DNA of 64,000 bases from Bacteriovoracaceae bacterium (GTDB lineage: Bacteria; Bdellovibrionota; Bacteriovoracia; Bacteriovoracales; Bacteriovoracaceae), in contig JAGLPP010000027.1 of the NCBI GenBank assembly GCA_023137315.1, positions 1 to 64,000 on the forward strand, written 5' to 3'. Positions 13,746 through 23,052 of this stretch are shown one piece after another. Position 1 is the stretch's first letter. The number at the start of each line of letters is the position of its first letter. The notes under the pieces are model-generated. The model had not been told where the DNA came from, searched no databases, and saw only the letters and a program-made list of their open reading frames with translations. Made by a program: the position numbers and the translations under genes.

Positions 13746-15719
13746 ATGGTGAGAATAATTTTTATAATATCGTTGATTACATTGATTCAATTGGTGACGA
13801 TAACACCGTCATCTGCCAACAATAATTCATGCACCAAATTGTTACAGGCTTTTATTAAGGATTCAGGAAATTTAAAATTCAAAGATAATCAAACCAAAAT
13901 TTTAAAACAATTACTTGAAAACAAGGGGATTGCCGAGGAAGATATTCCCGGACTCATGAACAGACTTACAAGAATGACTTCTGAATACGGAGTAAAACCC
14001 AAACAATTAATTGGCATCTTTGCTGATATAAAAGCAGAACGTTGCAGGACTGATGTTATAACCGGCCGAAAACAATTGATGGATTTTATTGATTTTTATT
14101 CCAAAAAACATGGTGACAAACTTTCAGTCAACGACATCATTAGAATTATAAATGACAACCTGATTTGGATGTATCTTGGTAAAAATTATTCTAAAAAGGG
14201 CAAAAAGCTATTTAAAGAGATTGCAGATATTCCTTCCGGTGGAATTCCAGGCAAGCTCAAGCTTTGGATTAAAAATAGAAAAGCAATGTTGAAGACGAAA
14301 CAAGCACAACAAAAACTTAAATTGAAAGCCTATGATTATACCGCCCGTGAATATATGCGACTCATAGAGAAGCCTTTTTCAAAATATGATTCAGTAGAGG
14401 ATATGCACCACGATACAATTGAAGCCATCTTGAATTTTGCTGCCATAGAAGCCAGATTCAAGCCGAATGAGGTCATTTCCCATTTCGAAAATAATATTTT
14501 TCCAAATATTGATGAAGAATCATTTCAACAGCTAAAAAAAGGAACAAAAAAATTGAAGGATTTTTTATCTGATGAATTTGAACGTTTTTCCAAGTTCAAA
14601 GATTCAGCATTTTTACCCAAAGAATTCAAAAAGCCAATTGGCACGATAGGAGATGTGCCAAAGGAAATTAAACATTCTTTGACAGATGAAATGAGAAAGG
14701 CAGGAAAGAAGGCATTGGACATTCAACAAAAATGTTCAGGTAAAGTCGATTGTTTAAACTCCAAAATGAAGAATTTAAAAGCAAAGATTTCTTTAGAATT
14801 TCATTTATCCGCAGTTAAAAAAAGAATGTCCAAGTTGTATCCTTGTCTTAGTCGCAATAAGTTGGTTGTGGCAGATATGTTTACAGGCTTAAGCTTCTTT
14901 ACTGCACAAACCATTTGGCGCTATCGTGACAAATGGGGAACCAAGGATTTTCCATACGAGAATTTTGTAAATTCCTATCTATGGTTTTCCATTGGATCCG
15001 AGGCAGGCTGCCGAGGTATGTTCAGATCACGCCAGAAATTTGGAGAAGCAGTAAAATTGGTTCCGGCCACTCGAAAAGAAAACTTAAAACATTTCTGGAA
15101 ACGCTACTATCCGCCATTGCTGGTGACCTCTGCATCTGTGAGTTCTTTTCTGGGAGTGAGATATTACCTCGATAGAAAATTAGAAAGGGAAGAGCCTTTA
15201 ACCAAAGAACAAATATTGTATGATTTACCGGTTTATACACTCTATAGTTCAGTTTATGGGCCGATGAAAAGCCTTTTATTGGTGGACAGAATAAAATATA
15301 TCACCATACCTTCCATTACCAGAATGCTTACACGCAATGTAGTTAGTGAGAAGATTAAAAGTATTGCCACCTGGCTTTTATTAACCGGTGTGGACAAGGG
15401 AATAATTGGCTGGCTCAATCTTATGGAGTGGCGTTTCTTTGATGAGATATTCATTAAAAAATATCATGAATTTATAGAAAGAAGAAAAGAAAGCGAAGAG
15501 ACAGAAAAAGTTGGATCGCCACTGGGTCAAAAAGTTAAAATCAGCACTATCGTAGATGATGAAGATGCCCCTTTTTCCATATATGGTGTGGATTATGGCG
15601 AGACTTTTCAGAATAATACGATTCAAAAAATAATTTTGGAAATTGAAGCTTTAAATATTGAAAGCACTCAGAATGAATTGGTTTTAAAGAGACTGTCAAA
15701 CGAACAATACTTGGATTGA
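13746..15719 (+). CDS. exported protein of unknown function with C-terminal membrane segments
   Basis: 657 aa; signal peptide at residues 1-25 (hydrophobic run ending S-S-A-N). Residues ~25-370 are charged, helical and lysine-rich. Residues ~375-600 contain several hydrophobic stretches (around L-V-V-A-D-M-F-T-G-L-S-F-F, P-P-L-L-V-T-S-A-S-V, S-I-A-T-W-L-L-L-T-G-V) that could be membrane helices. The tail is acidic. Cysteines occur in pairs (C-S-G-K-V-D-C, C-L-S, C-R). I do not recognise the family. AAGG lies before the ATG. The gene stands alone between divergent and convergent neighbours. Confidence 0.65.
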   Translation: MVRIIFIISLITLIQLVTITPSSANNNSCTKLLQAFIKDSGNLKFKDNQTKILKQLLENKGIAEEDIPGLMNRLTRMTSEYGVKPKQLIGIFADIKAERCRTDVITGRKQLMDFIDFYSKKHGDKLSVNDIIRIINDNLIWMYLGKNYSKKGKKLFKEIADIPSGGIPGKLKLWIKNRKAMLKTKQAQQKLKLKAYDYTAREYMRLIEKPFSKYDSVEDMHHDTIEAILNFAAIEARFKPNEVISHFENNIFPNIDEESFQQLKKGTKKLKDFLSDEFERFSKFKDSAFLPKEFKKPIGTIGDVPKEIKHSLTDEMRKAGKKALDIQQKCSGKVDCLNSKMKNLKAKISLEFHLSAVKKRMSKLYPCLSRNKLVVADMFTGLSFFTAQTIWRYRDKWGTKDFPYENFVNSYLWFSIGSEAGCRGMFRSRQKFGEAVKLVPATRKENLKHFWKRYYPPLLVTSASVSSFLGVRYYLDRKLEREEPLTKEQILYDLPVYTLYSSVYGPMKSLLLVDRIKYITIPSITRMLTRNVVSEKIKSIATWLLLTGVDKGIIGWLNLMEWRFFDEIFIKKYHEFIERRKESEETEKVGSPLGQKVKISTIVDDEDAPFSIYGVDYGETFQNNTIQKIILEIEALNIESTQNELVLKRLSNEQYLD

Positions 15720-18713: not shown

Positions 18714-19166
18714 ATGAAATACGTCATCATATTAACGGCTTTTTTTGGACTTTCAGCCTGTTCCACTTTTTACAACGGGAAGGCCGAAAAAAAGCACACC
18801 ATAAGAACGCCCGCCTCTATGAAAAAAAGCTATCAATGCTATGTTGTCCGGATTAAATGCGCAAATTGTGCCATATGCAAACATTCTGACCCCAACATTG
18901 TGATCTCCAATCTTCAAGAGCTTTATGGTTATATGAAAAGATTAGAGGAAGACAATTCCGAGATAGGCTACGAATTCTATCTCGACAGGAAAATTGCCGG
19001 AATTACTGTTCGTTATACTACCGACCGTGAAACAGCAAAAAACATGTTAATCGTTCACGTTAAGGATGGAATCAATAACGATTTCAAGGAAGGCCTGGAG
19101 TATTTTAAAACCAACTGCCGGGAATATACTCTCGACACGCTGGAGTTACCCGAAACATCGCTATAA
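18714..19166 (+). CDS. small lipoprotein of unknown function
   Basis: 150 aa; lipobox L-S-A-C with Cys16 after a short hydrophobic signal. The mature part has a tight cysteine cluster (C-A-N-C-A-I-C-K, around residues 57-64) plus two more cysteines, suggesting disulphides or metal binding. GGGGGA precedes the ATG. The 3' end faces the convergent 799-aa lipoprotein gene 10 nt away. No family recognised. Confidence 0.65.
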   Translation: MKYVIILTAFFGLSACSTFYNGKAEKKHTIRTPASMKKSYQCYVVRIKCANCAICKHSDPNIVISNLQELYGYMKRLEEDNSEIGYEFYLDRKIAGITVRYTTDRETAKNMLIVHVKDGINNDFKEGLEYFKTNCREYTLDTLELPETSL

Positions 19167-19176
19167 ACATCCATTC

Positions 19177-21576
19177 CTATTTTCCACTTTGCACCGACTG
19201 AATCACTTTTTTCAACTCTTCACTGGATGCCGGTACAACTTTAAATTCCTCTCCATTTTTTTTCATCTTTTCAATATCCAAAATTGTTCCACCTGGCAGA
19301 TCATCACCTTTTCCAAGTTTTCCTGAAACAGCATAGATAACCCAGCGCGGGCCCTCCATTGAAAGTACAAGATATGATGCATCGGAAACGGCCAGAATCC
19401 CCTGGGCACTCAGATGAACAAGCGCACCATAGGTAAGAACTATTCCGGAACCCAGAGTATAGCTGCTTGGAACTGCAATACCTTTTCCAACCTCATATGC
19501 ACTCAATGTAGTTGCAACCCCGGCGGAAACGGCGACACCTCCAACCAAAGTTGTTCCTGCAATGGTATTTCCAAAAACATAAGTTCCACCTGCAACGGCC
19601 TGACCGGCCAGATAATAACTTGATCCTGCAGCAATACCGGCACCTCCAACAGCAACACCAAGACTTGTTCCCGTTGTTGGAATGCCAACGCTGGCAAGAG
19701 GAACTCCAACATAAACCGAGTTTGAGGCTATTTTACCTCCCATATATGTAGTTGCTTCAACCATATGGGCACCGGCCCAGGTTCCGGACTTTAATCCTTT
19801 CGCCGAAGCAAAGGTTGTACCGCGAATTAATTTTCCTGTGCCCTTTAATACATATTTCCCGCTTTTTCCTATTCCATAACCGCCTGCACGCGATACTTTT
19901 CCAACAGAATAAGTTGTGGCAGTTGCAACAGGAGCAAAAACATAAATCCCACCCCTTGCTGCTTTTCCAAAAAGATACGAACCACCTCTATAAAGCTTTC
20001 CAAATCCACGTATCAGTAAATCCGTGGATTTTCCGGCCCCCTTTAAAAAACCCTTGATACCATGGCCAACTCCCTTGAGGGTGAATTTACCAGGGGTGGC
20101 AATTGCCGCAGTTGTTCCTGCCGCAATTTTTCCTCCGGTATATTCAAGAAGACTGTAAACTCCGGCCACTGAGGCAATGGCCGTTGGAGCAATCAGATCA
20201 TAGGTTGTTCCTCCGACACCCTTTACCACTTCAACTGCAAGTTTGGTTGTGGCCACACCTCCCTGAACAACAAGCGTAGTAGGGTAAGCGACAGTGTTTA
20301 CAGACAGATATCCCAATCCTGCCGCAGAGGCCTTGCCAAGAGGTTTTATGGATACATCCCAAAGAAATGCCTTTGTAAGCCACGCCATGGCCTTTATTGA
20401 ACCAAGAGTGTATCCGATGGTCTTGGAATTTTTCGTAAATTCATTTTTTGCATCCGCTACGGATTTATTAAAATCATCACCCCATGATGAAAGGGTTTTT
20501 GAGAAAAAATAAGCTGACTTTCCAGAGTATTTTTTGCGAAACTCTTCGGATATTTTAAATCTTTTGGAAAATTGCGGTAAAGTGGAAGCTATGTCATCCA
20601 CTCTTTTCCCTATATTCTCCGGAACCACCACATATCCCTGGATAAATTTTCGTTTGGCAAAATCAAGATGTGTTGATGCCAATTTTTGTGTTTTTAAATT
20701 GGTTGTTTTGGCGGCATCGTATAGACCATCTTCAACTTTTTCGGCAAATTTATCAATTTCATCTTTTGAATTTCTACCGGCATCACTAAAACTGTTATAA
20801 ATCTTCTTTCCTGTTTTTTGTGAACCTTGGTCAACCATCTTCCCAAAATCTGAAATTCCATTATCAATTGTTTTGGAACTTTCCAACATCTCCTTGAATT
20901 TTTCTCTGGATTTGTTTTTCATGTGATGATCAAAGGAACGTCCGTCTTTTCGCATTTTTTTATCAAATCTGTCTCCTGAAGTGCTAAGATTCTTGTCCGA
21001 TCTTTTTCCCCATTGTTCCAGATGATGTGAAGCGAGATATCCATCATAAAGCATGTCCTCCCTGGTTTCCTTTGACGATTTTTTTGTTTTTTCATCAATT
21101 CTACGTGCCAGATCCAATATGGCCCTGTTCACCTGCCTCGTGTATTCGATGGATTTTTTAAGTGATTTTTTTGGAAGTGGAGCTGATTTTGAGATTAAAA
21201 ACCACGCATCGTCTTTAACTTCACGACCAATATCATTCGTAATTTTTCCTGTCCTTGTATGAATTTTCTTTGAAATTTTCAATGACTTCAGGGTTCCCGC
21301 CTTTACAAGATTATACGAAGATGCAGCATTTTTGAGACTAAGAAGAAAGGAGTCTCTTGCCTTGATACCAACCAGCGTATAGGTTATTTCTAGCGTATCG
21401 GGACCTGGCGGAATCAGTTTTATTTTTGTTTTAGGAACCTTGAAAGCACCATTGTTGTAAAGGGAGGAGTGTCCCTCTTTTACAAGTTTTTTTGTATTTT
21501 TCAGAGGATCATCCGAAGTTGCACATGATATGCTGATAATTAGAATTACAAGAAGGAGTGGATATGCACGTTTCAT
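19177..21576 (-). CDS. large lipoprotein built of 11-residue repeats
   Basis: 799 aa. Signal with lipobox I-S-I-S-C (Cys18). Residues ~25-130 form a module shared with the upstream paralogue (S-L-Y-N-N-G...P-K-T-K; K-x-x-x-F-L-L-S-L-K-N-A-A-S-S). From about residue 158 to 685 the sequence runs in an unbroken 11-residue register. Residues 158-345 are charged helical repeats (for example K-T-I-D-N-G-I-S-D-F-G at 235). Residues 420-685 are Gly/Ala/Thr-rich with aromatic at position 3, Gly at 6 and Lys at 7 (Y534, Y545, Y556, Y567, W600, Y611, Y622, Y655, Y666). A C-terminal module (residues 735-795) again matches the paralogue. The start overlaps the upstream stop by 4 nt. Function unknown; membrane-lining or lipid-binding is inference. 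Confidence 0.75.
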   Translation of the reverse strand: MKRAYPLLLVILIISISCATSDDPLKNTKKLVKEGHSSLYNNGAFKVPKTKIKLIPPGPDTLEITYTLVGIKARDSFLLSLKNAASSYNLVKAGTLKSLKISKKIHTRTGKITNDIGREVKDDAWFLISKSAPLPKKSLKKSIEYTRQVNRAILDLARRIDEKTKKSSKETREDMLYDGYLASHHLEQWGKRSDKNLSTSGDRFDKKMRKDGRSFDHHMKNKSREKFKEMLESSKTIDNGISDFGKMVDQGSQKTGKKIYNSFSDAGRNSKDEIDKFAEKVEDGLYDAAKTTNLKTQKLASTHLDFAKRKFIQGYVVVPENIGKRVDDIASTLPQFSKRFKISEEFRKKYSGKSAYFFSKTLSSWGDDFNKSVADAKNEFTKNSKTIGYTLGSIKAMAWLTKAFLWDVSIKPLGKASAAGLGYLSVNTVAYPTTLVVQGGVATTKLAVEVVKGVGGTTYDLIAPTAIASVAGVYSLLEYTGGKIAAGTTAAIATPGKFTLKGVGHGIKGFLKGAGKSTDLLIRGFGKLYRGGSYLFGKAARGGIYVFAPVATATTYSVGKVSRAGGYGIGKSGKYVLKGTGKLIRGTTFASAKGLKSGTWAGAHMVEATTYMGGKIASNSVYVGVPLASVGIPTTGTSLGVAVGGAGIAAGSSYYLAGQAVAGGTYVFGNTIAGTTLVGGVAVSAGVATTLSAYEVGKGIAVPSSYTLGSGIVLTYGALVHLSAQGILAVSDASYLVLSMEGPRWVIYAVSGKLGKGDDLPGGTILDIEKMKKNGEEFKVVPASSEELKKVIQSVQSGK

Positions 21577-23006
21577 TTTTCACTCCCGTTCAAGTCATAT
21601 GGAAGTTTCTTTAAAACTTTTTGGATTACTTTTTCGTCTTCAGTGAGTATTTTTACTTTTACTCCCCTTTTATCAAGCTCCTTCATGTTAACAACAGAAC
21701 CAACAGGTAATTCCGTTACGCTTGAACCGGCAATATCGCCATTTGCGTAAGCAAGAAAAAGTTTTGGCCCGTCATAAACCAAAAAGACCGTGCCATTAAC
21801 GGCCGTTAAAAAAGTCTGGACGGGTAATTGAGTTAGGGCATTGTATCCAAGGACCACACCACTGACGGTTGTTCCAGAGATTAATTTTCCGGTTTCTTTC
21901 CCGAAAAGGTAGAGAAGTTGACCGGCATAGCGTGTACTGGAACCTGCTGCCGCCAATGTTGTAAAAGAAGCACCTCCGACAACACCGGAAGTACTGAGTG
22001 CAACCTGATTCATGGCACCGGCCGTTTTACCGGCAACCCATGTTGGAGCGGTGGATGCAACGGACAACATTGAAACGGACGCCAAAAGTCCTCCTTCAAC
22101 AGTTTTTGCAATAATTTTTACACCTATCTTTGTAGTGTAATAAATTATGCCACCAAGTGAAAAAATGGTTCTTCCTGAAATAATAACCACACCGGCAACA
22201 GGGAAAAGGACCCCCTTGCCAATCCACTTCATTGTCTTTTTTCCGGTATAAGTACCCTTCTTTTCAATTTCCTCTCCGGCAGGTTTGATTAAACCGTACC
22301 ACAAGGCCTTTACATGCCCCCATAAAACATAAGGAAGAGCTACCAGGGTATTTTTTTTCCTTCCTGATTTTTCGTATTCACTATTCCATTCCAAACGGGC
22401 CTTCGAAAGCGCATCACTCCAGGAAACTTCTATATCATTTTTCTTTTTTGACCTTAAAAACGAAACCATTTCCTTTAATTTTTTAAAATCATTTTTAATC
22501 CTTGATGGATAGGACACTGGAATTGCCTTCAATCTTTCCCAGTCATCATGAACCAGATCATTCATATGAATGGTTCCAATAAGAATGCTGTCCCACGCTT
22601 TTTTGAAATTTTTTCTTGAATATTCATATTCCAATGACACGATTTTATCTGTTTTTTTATTGATCCACTTCCTGCCTTTTTTTCCATATTTATGAAAAAA
22701 CTTTACTGCTCTTTTGAAGTGTTCAGGTTTTTTTCTGATGGACTGGTAAAATTCATTCGAACCATCAGAGGCTTTGTTCATCACTTCAAGCCAAGCCTCT
22801 TTTGCCGTACCAATTGATCTTTCATGACAATATTCAAGACTTTTTTGAGTGGAGGGAATGATGAGCCAGCCATCATTATAAAGGGCCTTCTGTCCGCGAA
22901 AATTTGCCGTGGAAAATTTTATGATTTCGGATACACTCTTTTTCCCTGTTTGAGCAAACGTAAAAAATGAAACAAGAATGAATACAAAAATAAGTCCCGT
23001 TTTCAT
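21573..23006 (-). CDS. exported paralogue of the 11-residue-repeat lipoprotein
   Basis: About 477 aa; cleavable signal peptide (K-T-G-L-I-F...F-F-T-F-A-Q). N-terminal module K-A-L-Y-N-D-G-W-L-I-I-P...A-K-E-A-W-L-E-V-M-N-K-A-S parallels the 799-aa protein. The middle is charged and helical, then residues ~255-420 are Gly/Ala/Thr/Val-rich with an 11-residue rhythm (for example A-P-T-W-V-A-G-K-T-A-G and L-L-Y-L-F-G-K-E-T-G-K). The C-terminus (G-P-K-L-F-L-A-Y-A-N-G...L-P-V-G-S-V-V-N-M-K-E-L) matches the paralogue's end. I start at the ATG at 23006, with GGAGAG (23011-23016) as ribosome-binding site. An ATG 21 nt upstream falls in the terminator's T-run. Confidence 0.72.
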   Translation of the reverse strand: MKTGLIFVFILVSFFTFAQTGKKSVSEIIKFSTANFRGQKALYNDGWLIIPSTQKSLEYCHERSIGTAKEAWLEVMNKASDGSNEFYQSIRKKPEHFKRAVKFFHKYGKKGRKWINKKTDKIVSLEYEYSRKNFKKAWDSILIGTIHMNDLVHDDWERLKAIPVSYPSRIKNDFKKLKEMVSFLRSKKKNDIEVSWSDALSKARLEWNSEYEKSGRKKNTLVALPYVLWGHVKALWYGLIKPAGEEIEKKGTYTGKKTMKWIGKGVLFPVAGVVIISGRTIFSLGGIIYYTTKIGVKIIAKTVEGGLLASVSMLSVASTAPTWVAGKTAGAMNQVALSTSGVVGGASFTTLAAAGSSTRYAGQLLYLFGKETGKLISGTTVSGVVLGYNALTQLPVQTFLTAVNGTVFLVYDGPKLFLAYANGDIAGSSVTELPVGSVVNMKELDKRGVKVKILTEDEKVIQKVLKKLPYDLNGSEK

Positions 23007-23016
23007 TATACTCTCC

Positions 23017-23052
23017 ATAAAAAACAACCCTCGACATTTGTCGAGGGTTGTT
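23017..23052 (-). terminator. rho-independent terminator after hppA, abutting the next start
   Basis: A perfect 13-bp stem (23023-23035 with 23040-23052, containing AACCCTCGAC/GTCGAGGGTT) with a 4-nt loop. On the minus strand it is followed by six T at 23019-23024, the run overlapping the stem base. The T-run ends directly at the ribosome-binding site of the 477-aa gene, so that gene is either transcribed by read-through of this terminator or from a promoter hidden in the 78-nt gap. Confidence 0.85.

Follow-up and report, generated by a model that had tools for sequence, protein, structure and literature searches.

Introduction

SMC and Rad50 have antiparallel arms that need matched lengths, and Omp-alpha and Lpp are envelope-spanning rods, anchored at the outer membrane, that are built as parallel oligomers of single helices. 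Here we compare with these and other systems a gene pair from a Bacteriovoracaceae bacterium, found in a 64,000-nucleotide stretch of DNA (assembly GCA_023137315.1, contig JAGLPP010000027.1, positions 1 to 64,000) that is called the window below. Gene A (19177..21576, minus strand) encodes a 799-aa lipoprotein which its open reading frame (ORF) and relatives mark as a long-arm member of its family, and gene B (21573..23006, minus strand) encodes a 477-aa exported paralogue of A with a matching layout and a fixed length. An original prediction, made from the letters of the window alone, had singled out these two ORFs, and both are present.

The arms proposed for A would be matched and antiparallel as in SMC/Rad50, which, unlike A, are cytoplasmic ATPases with heptads. 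Like Omp-alpha and Lpp, A is proposed to be a rod anchored at the outer membrane, but as a hairpin, and it has no sequence match to either. HlyD/EmrA-type membrane fusion proteins and TolC form long antiparallel hairpins in the envelope, the EmrA coiled coil measuring 127 Å (PMC4158417). They resemble the structure proposed for A in these long helical hairpins and in a length that depends on the family, whereas A has 11- rather than 7-residue repeats and is paired with its own paralogue instead of a transporter. Alpha-synuclein, perilipin 4 and the exchangeable apolipoproteins share with A the 11-residue period, the 11/3 helix, runs of 11- or 33-mers and the Gly/Ala/Val/Thr/Lys-rich composition of its C-terminal arm (C-arm); the 33-mers of perilipin 4 are three 11-mers without insertions or deletions (indels) (PMC5889406). 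In contrast to these proteins, A has no sequence match to them, is an exported bacterial lipoprotein, carries two unlike arms of co-varying length and combines these with a conserved N-terminal segment, C-terminal domain and turn. Hendecad helices and hairpins of matched length each have precedents on their own; to the extent searched, an unnamed lipoprotein pair that joins both, with paired and quantised length changes, is undescribed.

Matched length changes in the two arms of A

Arm lengths were taken as distances between conserved residues in the numbering of window A, and changes were counted against the commonest state. That state, found in most relatives and in all phyla, has 126 residues from S87 to I312, in the N-terminal arm (N-arm), and 64 from P464 to P626, in the C-arm, while the intervals P626-P703 (77 residues) and L391-P464 (summing to 73) are constant in all relatives. 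Both zones of A shift by 3, 5, 6 or 9 hendecads, an equal number in each arm to within 2 residues. The two lengths are 157 and 97 residues in relative L107 (+31/+33), 179 and 119 in L104 (+53/+55), 192 and 130 in L105/L106 (+66/+66) and 225 and 162-163 in window A, L012 and L014 (+99/+98-99), L110 being about the same as the last. In window A the zone that accounts for the N-arm change, with 99 residues (nine hendecads) missing from most relatives, lies at residues ~176-303 (20668..21051, minus strand), and the C-arm zone with the matching 98-99 extra residues at ~506-621 (19714..20061, minus strand). The length of B is fixed across relatives, apart from small loop changes.

The length classes need five changes on the tree, which is the minimum for six classes. 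All eight changes fall within 2 of a multiple of 11, giving P of ~0.002 if residues modulo 11 were random, a rough figure in which the equality of the arms is uncounted and in which the sisters L104 and L107 may represent one shared event. Tandem DNA repeats of one period are found in both arms of single Nitrospirota genes (33 bp in L104, 33 bp in L107 and 99 bp in L106). None were detected in the arms of L105, and none are detectable in those of window A, where the copies have diverged beyond detection.

Helical geometry of the arms

The 11-residue periodicity claimed for A is real. Over residues 158-685 the lag-11 autocorrelation stands above shuffles for both hydrophobicity (z 6.2) and residue identity (z 9.2) and recurs at lag 22; when the shuffle was confined to 22-residue blocks, period 11 retained a z of 4.5 and the double period of 22 a z of 2.3, with no other period above 2.3. 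The position preferences of the blocks are also as predicted, with hydrophobic residues at positions 3 and 7 and Gly/Ser/Ala at 11 (93%) in the N-terminal part, and Gly/Ala at 6 (95%), Lys/Arg at 7 and 10 and aromatics at 3 in the C-terminal part. The hydrophobic-moment spectrum of A peaks at 98.0 degrees, the value of an 11/3 helix, in both blocks, and the geometry foreseen for A extends to the family, the peak lying at 96-99 degrees in the N-arm of 38/38 relatives and at 97-98.5 degrees in the C-arm of 25/38.

What did not hold is the single unbroken register proposed for A. The phase at 98.2 degrees is steady in the N-arm, at 298-334 degrees for windows starting at residues 90-266 (residues ~112-309); the moment is not significant around residues 376-441, and the phase returns at 107-125 degrees over residues 464-617, ~170 degrees from that of the N-arm. 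Beyond residue 618 there is no significant moment, though the Gly/aromatic spacing persists. B, which had been expected to keep the same rhythm less strictly, does show a weak lag-11 signal (z 2.1 for hydrophobicity, 3.5 for identity), but its periodicity is mostly that of an ordinary helix: in the family-averaged N-terminal half, lags 4, 7, 11 and 18 are about equal, as in any helix.

The two arms of A differ in character. The N-arm (residues 95-386; 20419..21294, minus strand), a charged 11/3 helix by its 98-degree moment, has 23% Lys/Arg, 18% Asp/Glu and a narrow apolar stripe. The C-arm (residues 464-703; 19468..20187, minus strand) consists of Gly/Ala/Tyr/Lys 11-residue repeats with a significant 11/3 moment to ~617, and is apolar or small at nearly all positions save two Lys-rich ones; its grand average of hydropathy (GRAVY) is 0.2-0.9 and its composition, Gly/Ala/Val/Thr with Lys, is synuclein/perilipin-like. 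The predicted change of repeat type, charged to Gly/aromatic, is observed, but we reread it as a passage from arm to arm across a conserved turn rather than within one register. Beta structure was considered for the C-arm and rejected, as a 160-180 degree component is not dominant in window A and the lag-2 correlation is negative; the unequal rise that a beta C-arm would entail is disfavoured because the repeat counts are equal in both arms.

These measurements bear on the suggestion that the repeats are of low complexity or disordered, that the blocks have no shared structure and that their lengths match by chance. High Gly content and low AlphaFold confidence are what disorder would give, but the 11/3 phase is steady over ~200 and ~150 residues, the same period is found in relatives at 35-40% identity, lengths are matched within 2 residues in four classes, and DNA repeats of one period lie in both arms of single genes, all of which make this explanation very improbable.

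Evidence for the proposed hairpin turn

The proposed hairpin turn of A occupies residues 386-391 (TIGYTL, T-T-G-[IVL]-S in the family; 20404..20421, minus strand) and is marked by an invariant Gly388, the loss of helical phase, the midpoints of the inserts and covariation. It is followed by a conserved apolar segment (residues 392-464; 20185..20403, minus strand) whose spacing is constant in all relatives. The centre implied by the inserts falls close to the conserved T-G-[IVL]-S break, at 401 against 386-391 in window A, 377 against 367-370 in L104 and 358 against 362-365 in L105. Mutual information between the arms is strongest at antidiagonals i+j = 596-608 in the numbering of the 620-aa Nitrospira relative L030, for which the predicted turn is at 301-303, and the position of this peak hardly shifts with the box chosen or with near neighbours left out. 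We take this covariation as supportive of antiparallel arms, not as proof. AlphaFold2 models of window A and of L030, a check that the original prediction had proposed, both have helix through both arms, but at low confidence; the C-terminal alpha/beta domain is modelled better, its blocks having a predicted local distance difference test score (pLDDT) of mostly 62-80 from window A residue 711. A Foldseek search of the window A model against the PDB gave generic coiled-coil matches only, with TM-scores of ~0.1, and was not used; matches of this low-confidence model to SMC/Rad50 are likewise uninformative.

If both arms gain repeats equally, a repeat probably has an equal rise in either arm, so that both would be helical and in contact, and for arms of concerted length antiparallel pairing across the turn is the simplest arrangement. 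The sequence evidence makes an antiparallel hairpin of two helices the most likely fold of A. The synuclein-like helix lying alone on lipid, as first proposed, is not the best reading, since the arms change length together by equal hendecads. Given the synuclein/perilipin-like composition, lipid contact of the C-arm is possible.

The main rival to a rod, which keeps part of the original prediction, is a membrane-coating hairpin, in which both arms would lie on lipid as synuclein/perilipin-like 11/3 helices, the apolar C-arm in the inner leaflet of the outer membrane and the charged N-arm over the C-arm, stabilising or curving the membrane. It would accommodate the lipid anchor that A carries by motif and a C-arm that is mostly apolar, with Lys at 7 and 10, aromatics at 3, the GRAVY values given above and 20-24% Gly, and it has a parallel in perilipin 4, whose 3 x 11 organisation, free of indels, goes with a helix unfolded in solution (PMC5889406). 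However, helices lying independently on lipid need not stay equal, and concerted change calls for pairing between the arms; we consider a coat of this kind less likely than the rod.

Export signals, gene layout and relatives

A begins with a signal peptide and a lipid-attachment Cys18 (ISIS/CATSD; 21523..21576, minus strand), read from the sequence, and nearly all members of the family retain this Cys. Judged by eye, the lipobox at ISIS/C18 follows a PS51257-like pattern and qualifies A as a bacterial lipoprotein; by this motif A is exported and lipidated, and the Ala after Cys18 favours the outer membrane under the E. coli rule. The signal peptide of B (FFTFA/Q; 22953..23006, minus strand) is probably cleaved by signal peptidase I; most B relatives, unlike window B, have a Cys of lipoprotein type at its end. 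In A, alignments define a conserved N-terminal segment, DPLxxTKKLVxEGHxSLYxNGAFxVPxTxIKLIPPGP, at residues 24-87 (21316..21507, minus strand). Alignments and AlphaFold2 strands define a small alpha/beta C-terminal domain at residues 704-799 (19180..19467, minus strand), with the motif EGPRWVIYAV, common to B. Short Nitrospirota ORFs (~70-120 aa) match only this EGPRWVxY domain (L086 1543-1758 and L089 1498-1728, with small matches in G632 and G628) and, by sequence, could be either solo domains or gene remnants.

A and B are true paralogues, their profiles matching each other mutually. B comes first and A second in the same direction, the ORFs overlapping by ATGA; a Shine-Dalgarno-like GGGAG precedes A, B starts with ATG with GGAG upstream, and A is present in one copy in the genome. 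A terminator-like inverted repeat with a 13-bp stem and a T-run (23023..23052, both strands) lies between B and the upstream membrane pyrophosphatase gene. A 150-aa small putative lipoprotein with a Cys-rich CANCAIC motif (18714-19166, plus strand) is convergent with A. Elsewhere in the window, a 657-aa exported protein of unknown type (13746-15719, plus strand) adjoins a uvrA-like gene.

The search for homologues in Bdellovibrionota that had been suggested found A, by profiles, in 5/129 genomes of its own family; across 291 sampled genomes of the phylum, no further family had it. A is also present at 29 loci of GTDB contigs (Bdellovibrio, Nitrospira, Nitrospirae, Gammaproteobacteria, Myxococcota, Deltaproteobacteria, Desulfobacterales and Lambdaproteobacteria), in 22/296 Nitrospirota genomes, including 12/14 of one small class, in 3/274 genomes from the class to which one gammaproteobacterial member belongs and in 2/237 from the phylum of a Myxococcota member. 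In Leptospira biflexa (plasmid p74) and L. kobayashii it is plasmid-borne, with no annotation beyond hypothetical protein. The pair is present in Bdellovibrionota, Nitrospirota, Gammaproteobacteria, Myxococcota and Leptospira; B precedes A wherever one contig holds both, and both genes have conserved N- and C-terminal segments.

Neighbouring genes vary across nearly all lineages (MutS, PurL, Nudix, histidine kinase, TonB receptor) and were rejected as a functional clue, as they differ from lineage to lineage. On L. biflexa p74 the B-A pair (L123 4436-7710; NC_010846.1 64020-67294) lies beside glucan synthesis genes of mdoD/mdoH type and is followed by genes for a diguanylate cyclase and a Ser/Thr kinase; the downstream genes are alike on L. 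kobayashii pE30-1. In L. biflexa A is LBF_RS18700 and B is LBF_RS18705.

That A and B belong to no described family is borne out in the profile libraries searched: no Pfam, NCBIfam or PHROGs model was above threshold in A, B or the aligned relatives. Among these proteins no synuclein, perilipin or apolipoprotein model reached the curated Pfam threshold, Pfam and NCBIfam matches included no LEA model, Pfam scans gave no lipoyl, beta-barrel or outer-membrane efflux domain, and literature searches gave no named family for A/B. A profile search of PDB sequences with A/B returned apolipophorin-III as a weak match (E 0.57), and other matches (spectrin, designed bundles, a ChuA-binding protein at E 0.0013) were taken as noise of helical composition. 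A phage origin was rejected, there being no phage or PHROGs match.

These searches also bear on an oligomeric alpha-helical conduit or pore, a hairpin tube that could in principle be TolC- or ClyA-like, its barrel lined or held together by the C-arms with their small residues. The long hairpin, the outer-membrane lipid anchor and the nearly all-apolar C-arm suggest burial in a higher-order bundle, and lengthening by whole repeats is possible for a barrel. However, neither outer-membrane efflux nor membrane fusion protein families are matched in sequence, and the neighbours include no conserved transporter partner, which leaves a conduit improbable.

Discussion

The explanation that we favour, with a rough probability of 0.45, is that A and B form a two-gene envelope system in which A is a hairpin lipoprotein serving as a rod or spacer. 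The bulk of A would be an antiparallel hairpin in 11/3 (hendecad) geometry, which we infer strongly: a charged outgoing arm, the T-G-[IVL]-S turn and an apolar, Gly/Ala-rich returning arm that would bring the small C-terminal domain back close to the lipid anchor. With the arms packed in register, the length of the shaft could change only through equal 11-residue units in both arms. Starting at the inner face of the outer membrane, A would reach into the periplasm over a distance set by repeat number; at 1.5 Å per residue, 99 residues per arm would add ~15 nm, in steps of 1.6 nm. A is probably oligomeric because its C-arm is apolar on nearly all sides, and this arm may be buried in the oligomer core or in lipid. 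B, as a shorter paralogue of fixed length, is probably a capping or basal partner, as its invariant pairing with A suggests. The long lipid-anchored rod of the original prediction fits this model, but a single uninterrupted fibre is not the best reading. The wide periplasm of Nitrospira (PMC4070959) was not used as support for a spacer, the pair being present in only 22/296 sampled Nitrospirota genomes.

Several observations weigh against this model. The arms of L013 are mismatched (-32/-22), those of Leptospira differ by about -10/-4, which are not whole hendecads, and L108 has 18-19 residues missing between P319 and L391, in the N-arm block only. The fixed length of B while A lengthens means that B is not alongside the whole shaft, and a Gly content like that of the C-arm is seldom seen in soluble helices. 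Covariation was computed from a small set of 34 sequences (effective number 24), its parallel control also reaches 4.4-5.8, above the column-permutation null, and mean pLDDT is low both for window A (52.2, 24 sequences) and for L030 (46.2, 35 sequences). The location of A, its oligomeric state and its role as a spacer are themselves inferred. The one-arm loss in L108 (1-1792) is possibly an effect of assembly or frameshift.

More broadly, and with less assurance, we suggest that A and B may represent a widespread unnamed two-protein device, a length-adjustable outer-membrane hairpin rod that changes by equal hendecads per arm, with a fixed-length paralogue at one end. At least five bacterial groups thus gain an unnamed family pair, for which the annotations encountered so far read only "hypothetical protein". 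Equal quantised changes in two segments of one gene are a rare and readable record of a structure being lengthened and shortened by evolution. If A is a spacer, its repeat number would predict a physical distance in the envelope, which is testable in Leptospira biflexa, and if A is a hairpin rod, cells would appear to adjust how long this envelope rod is, in 11-residue steps per arm.

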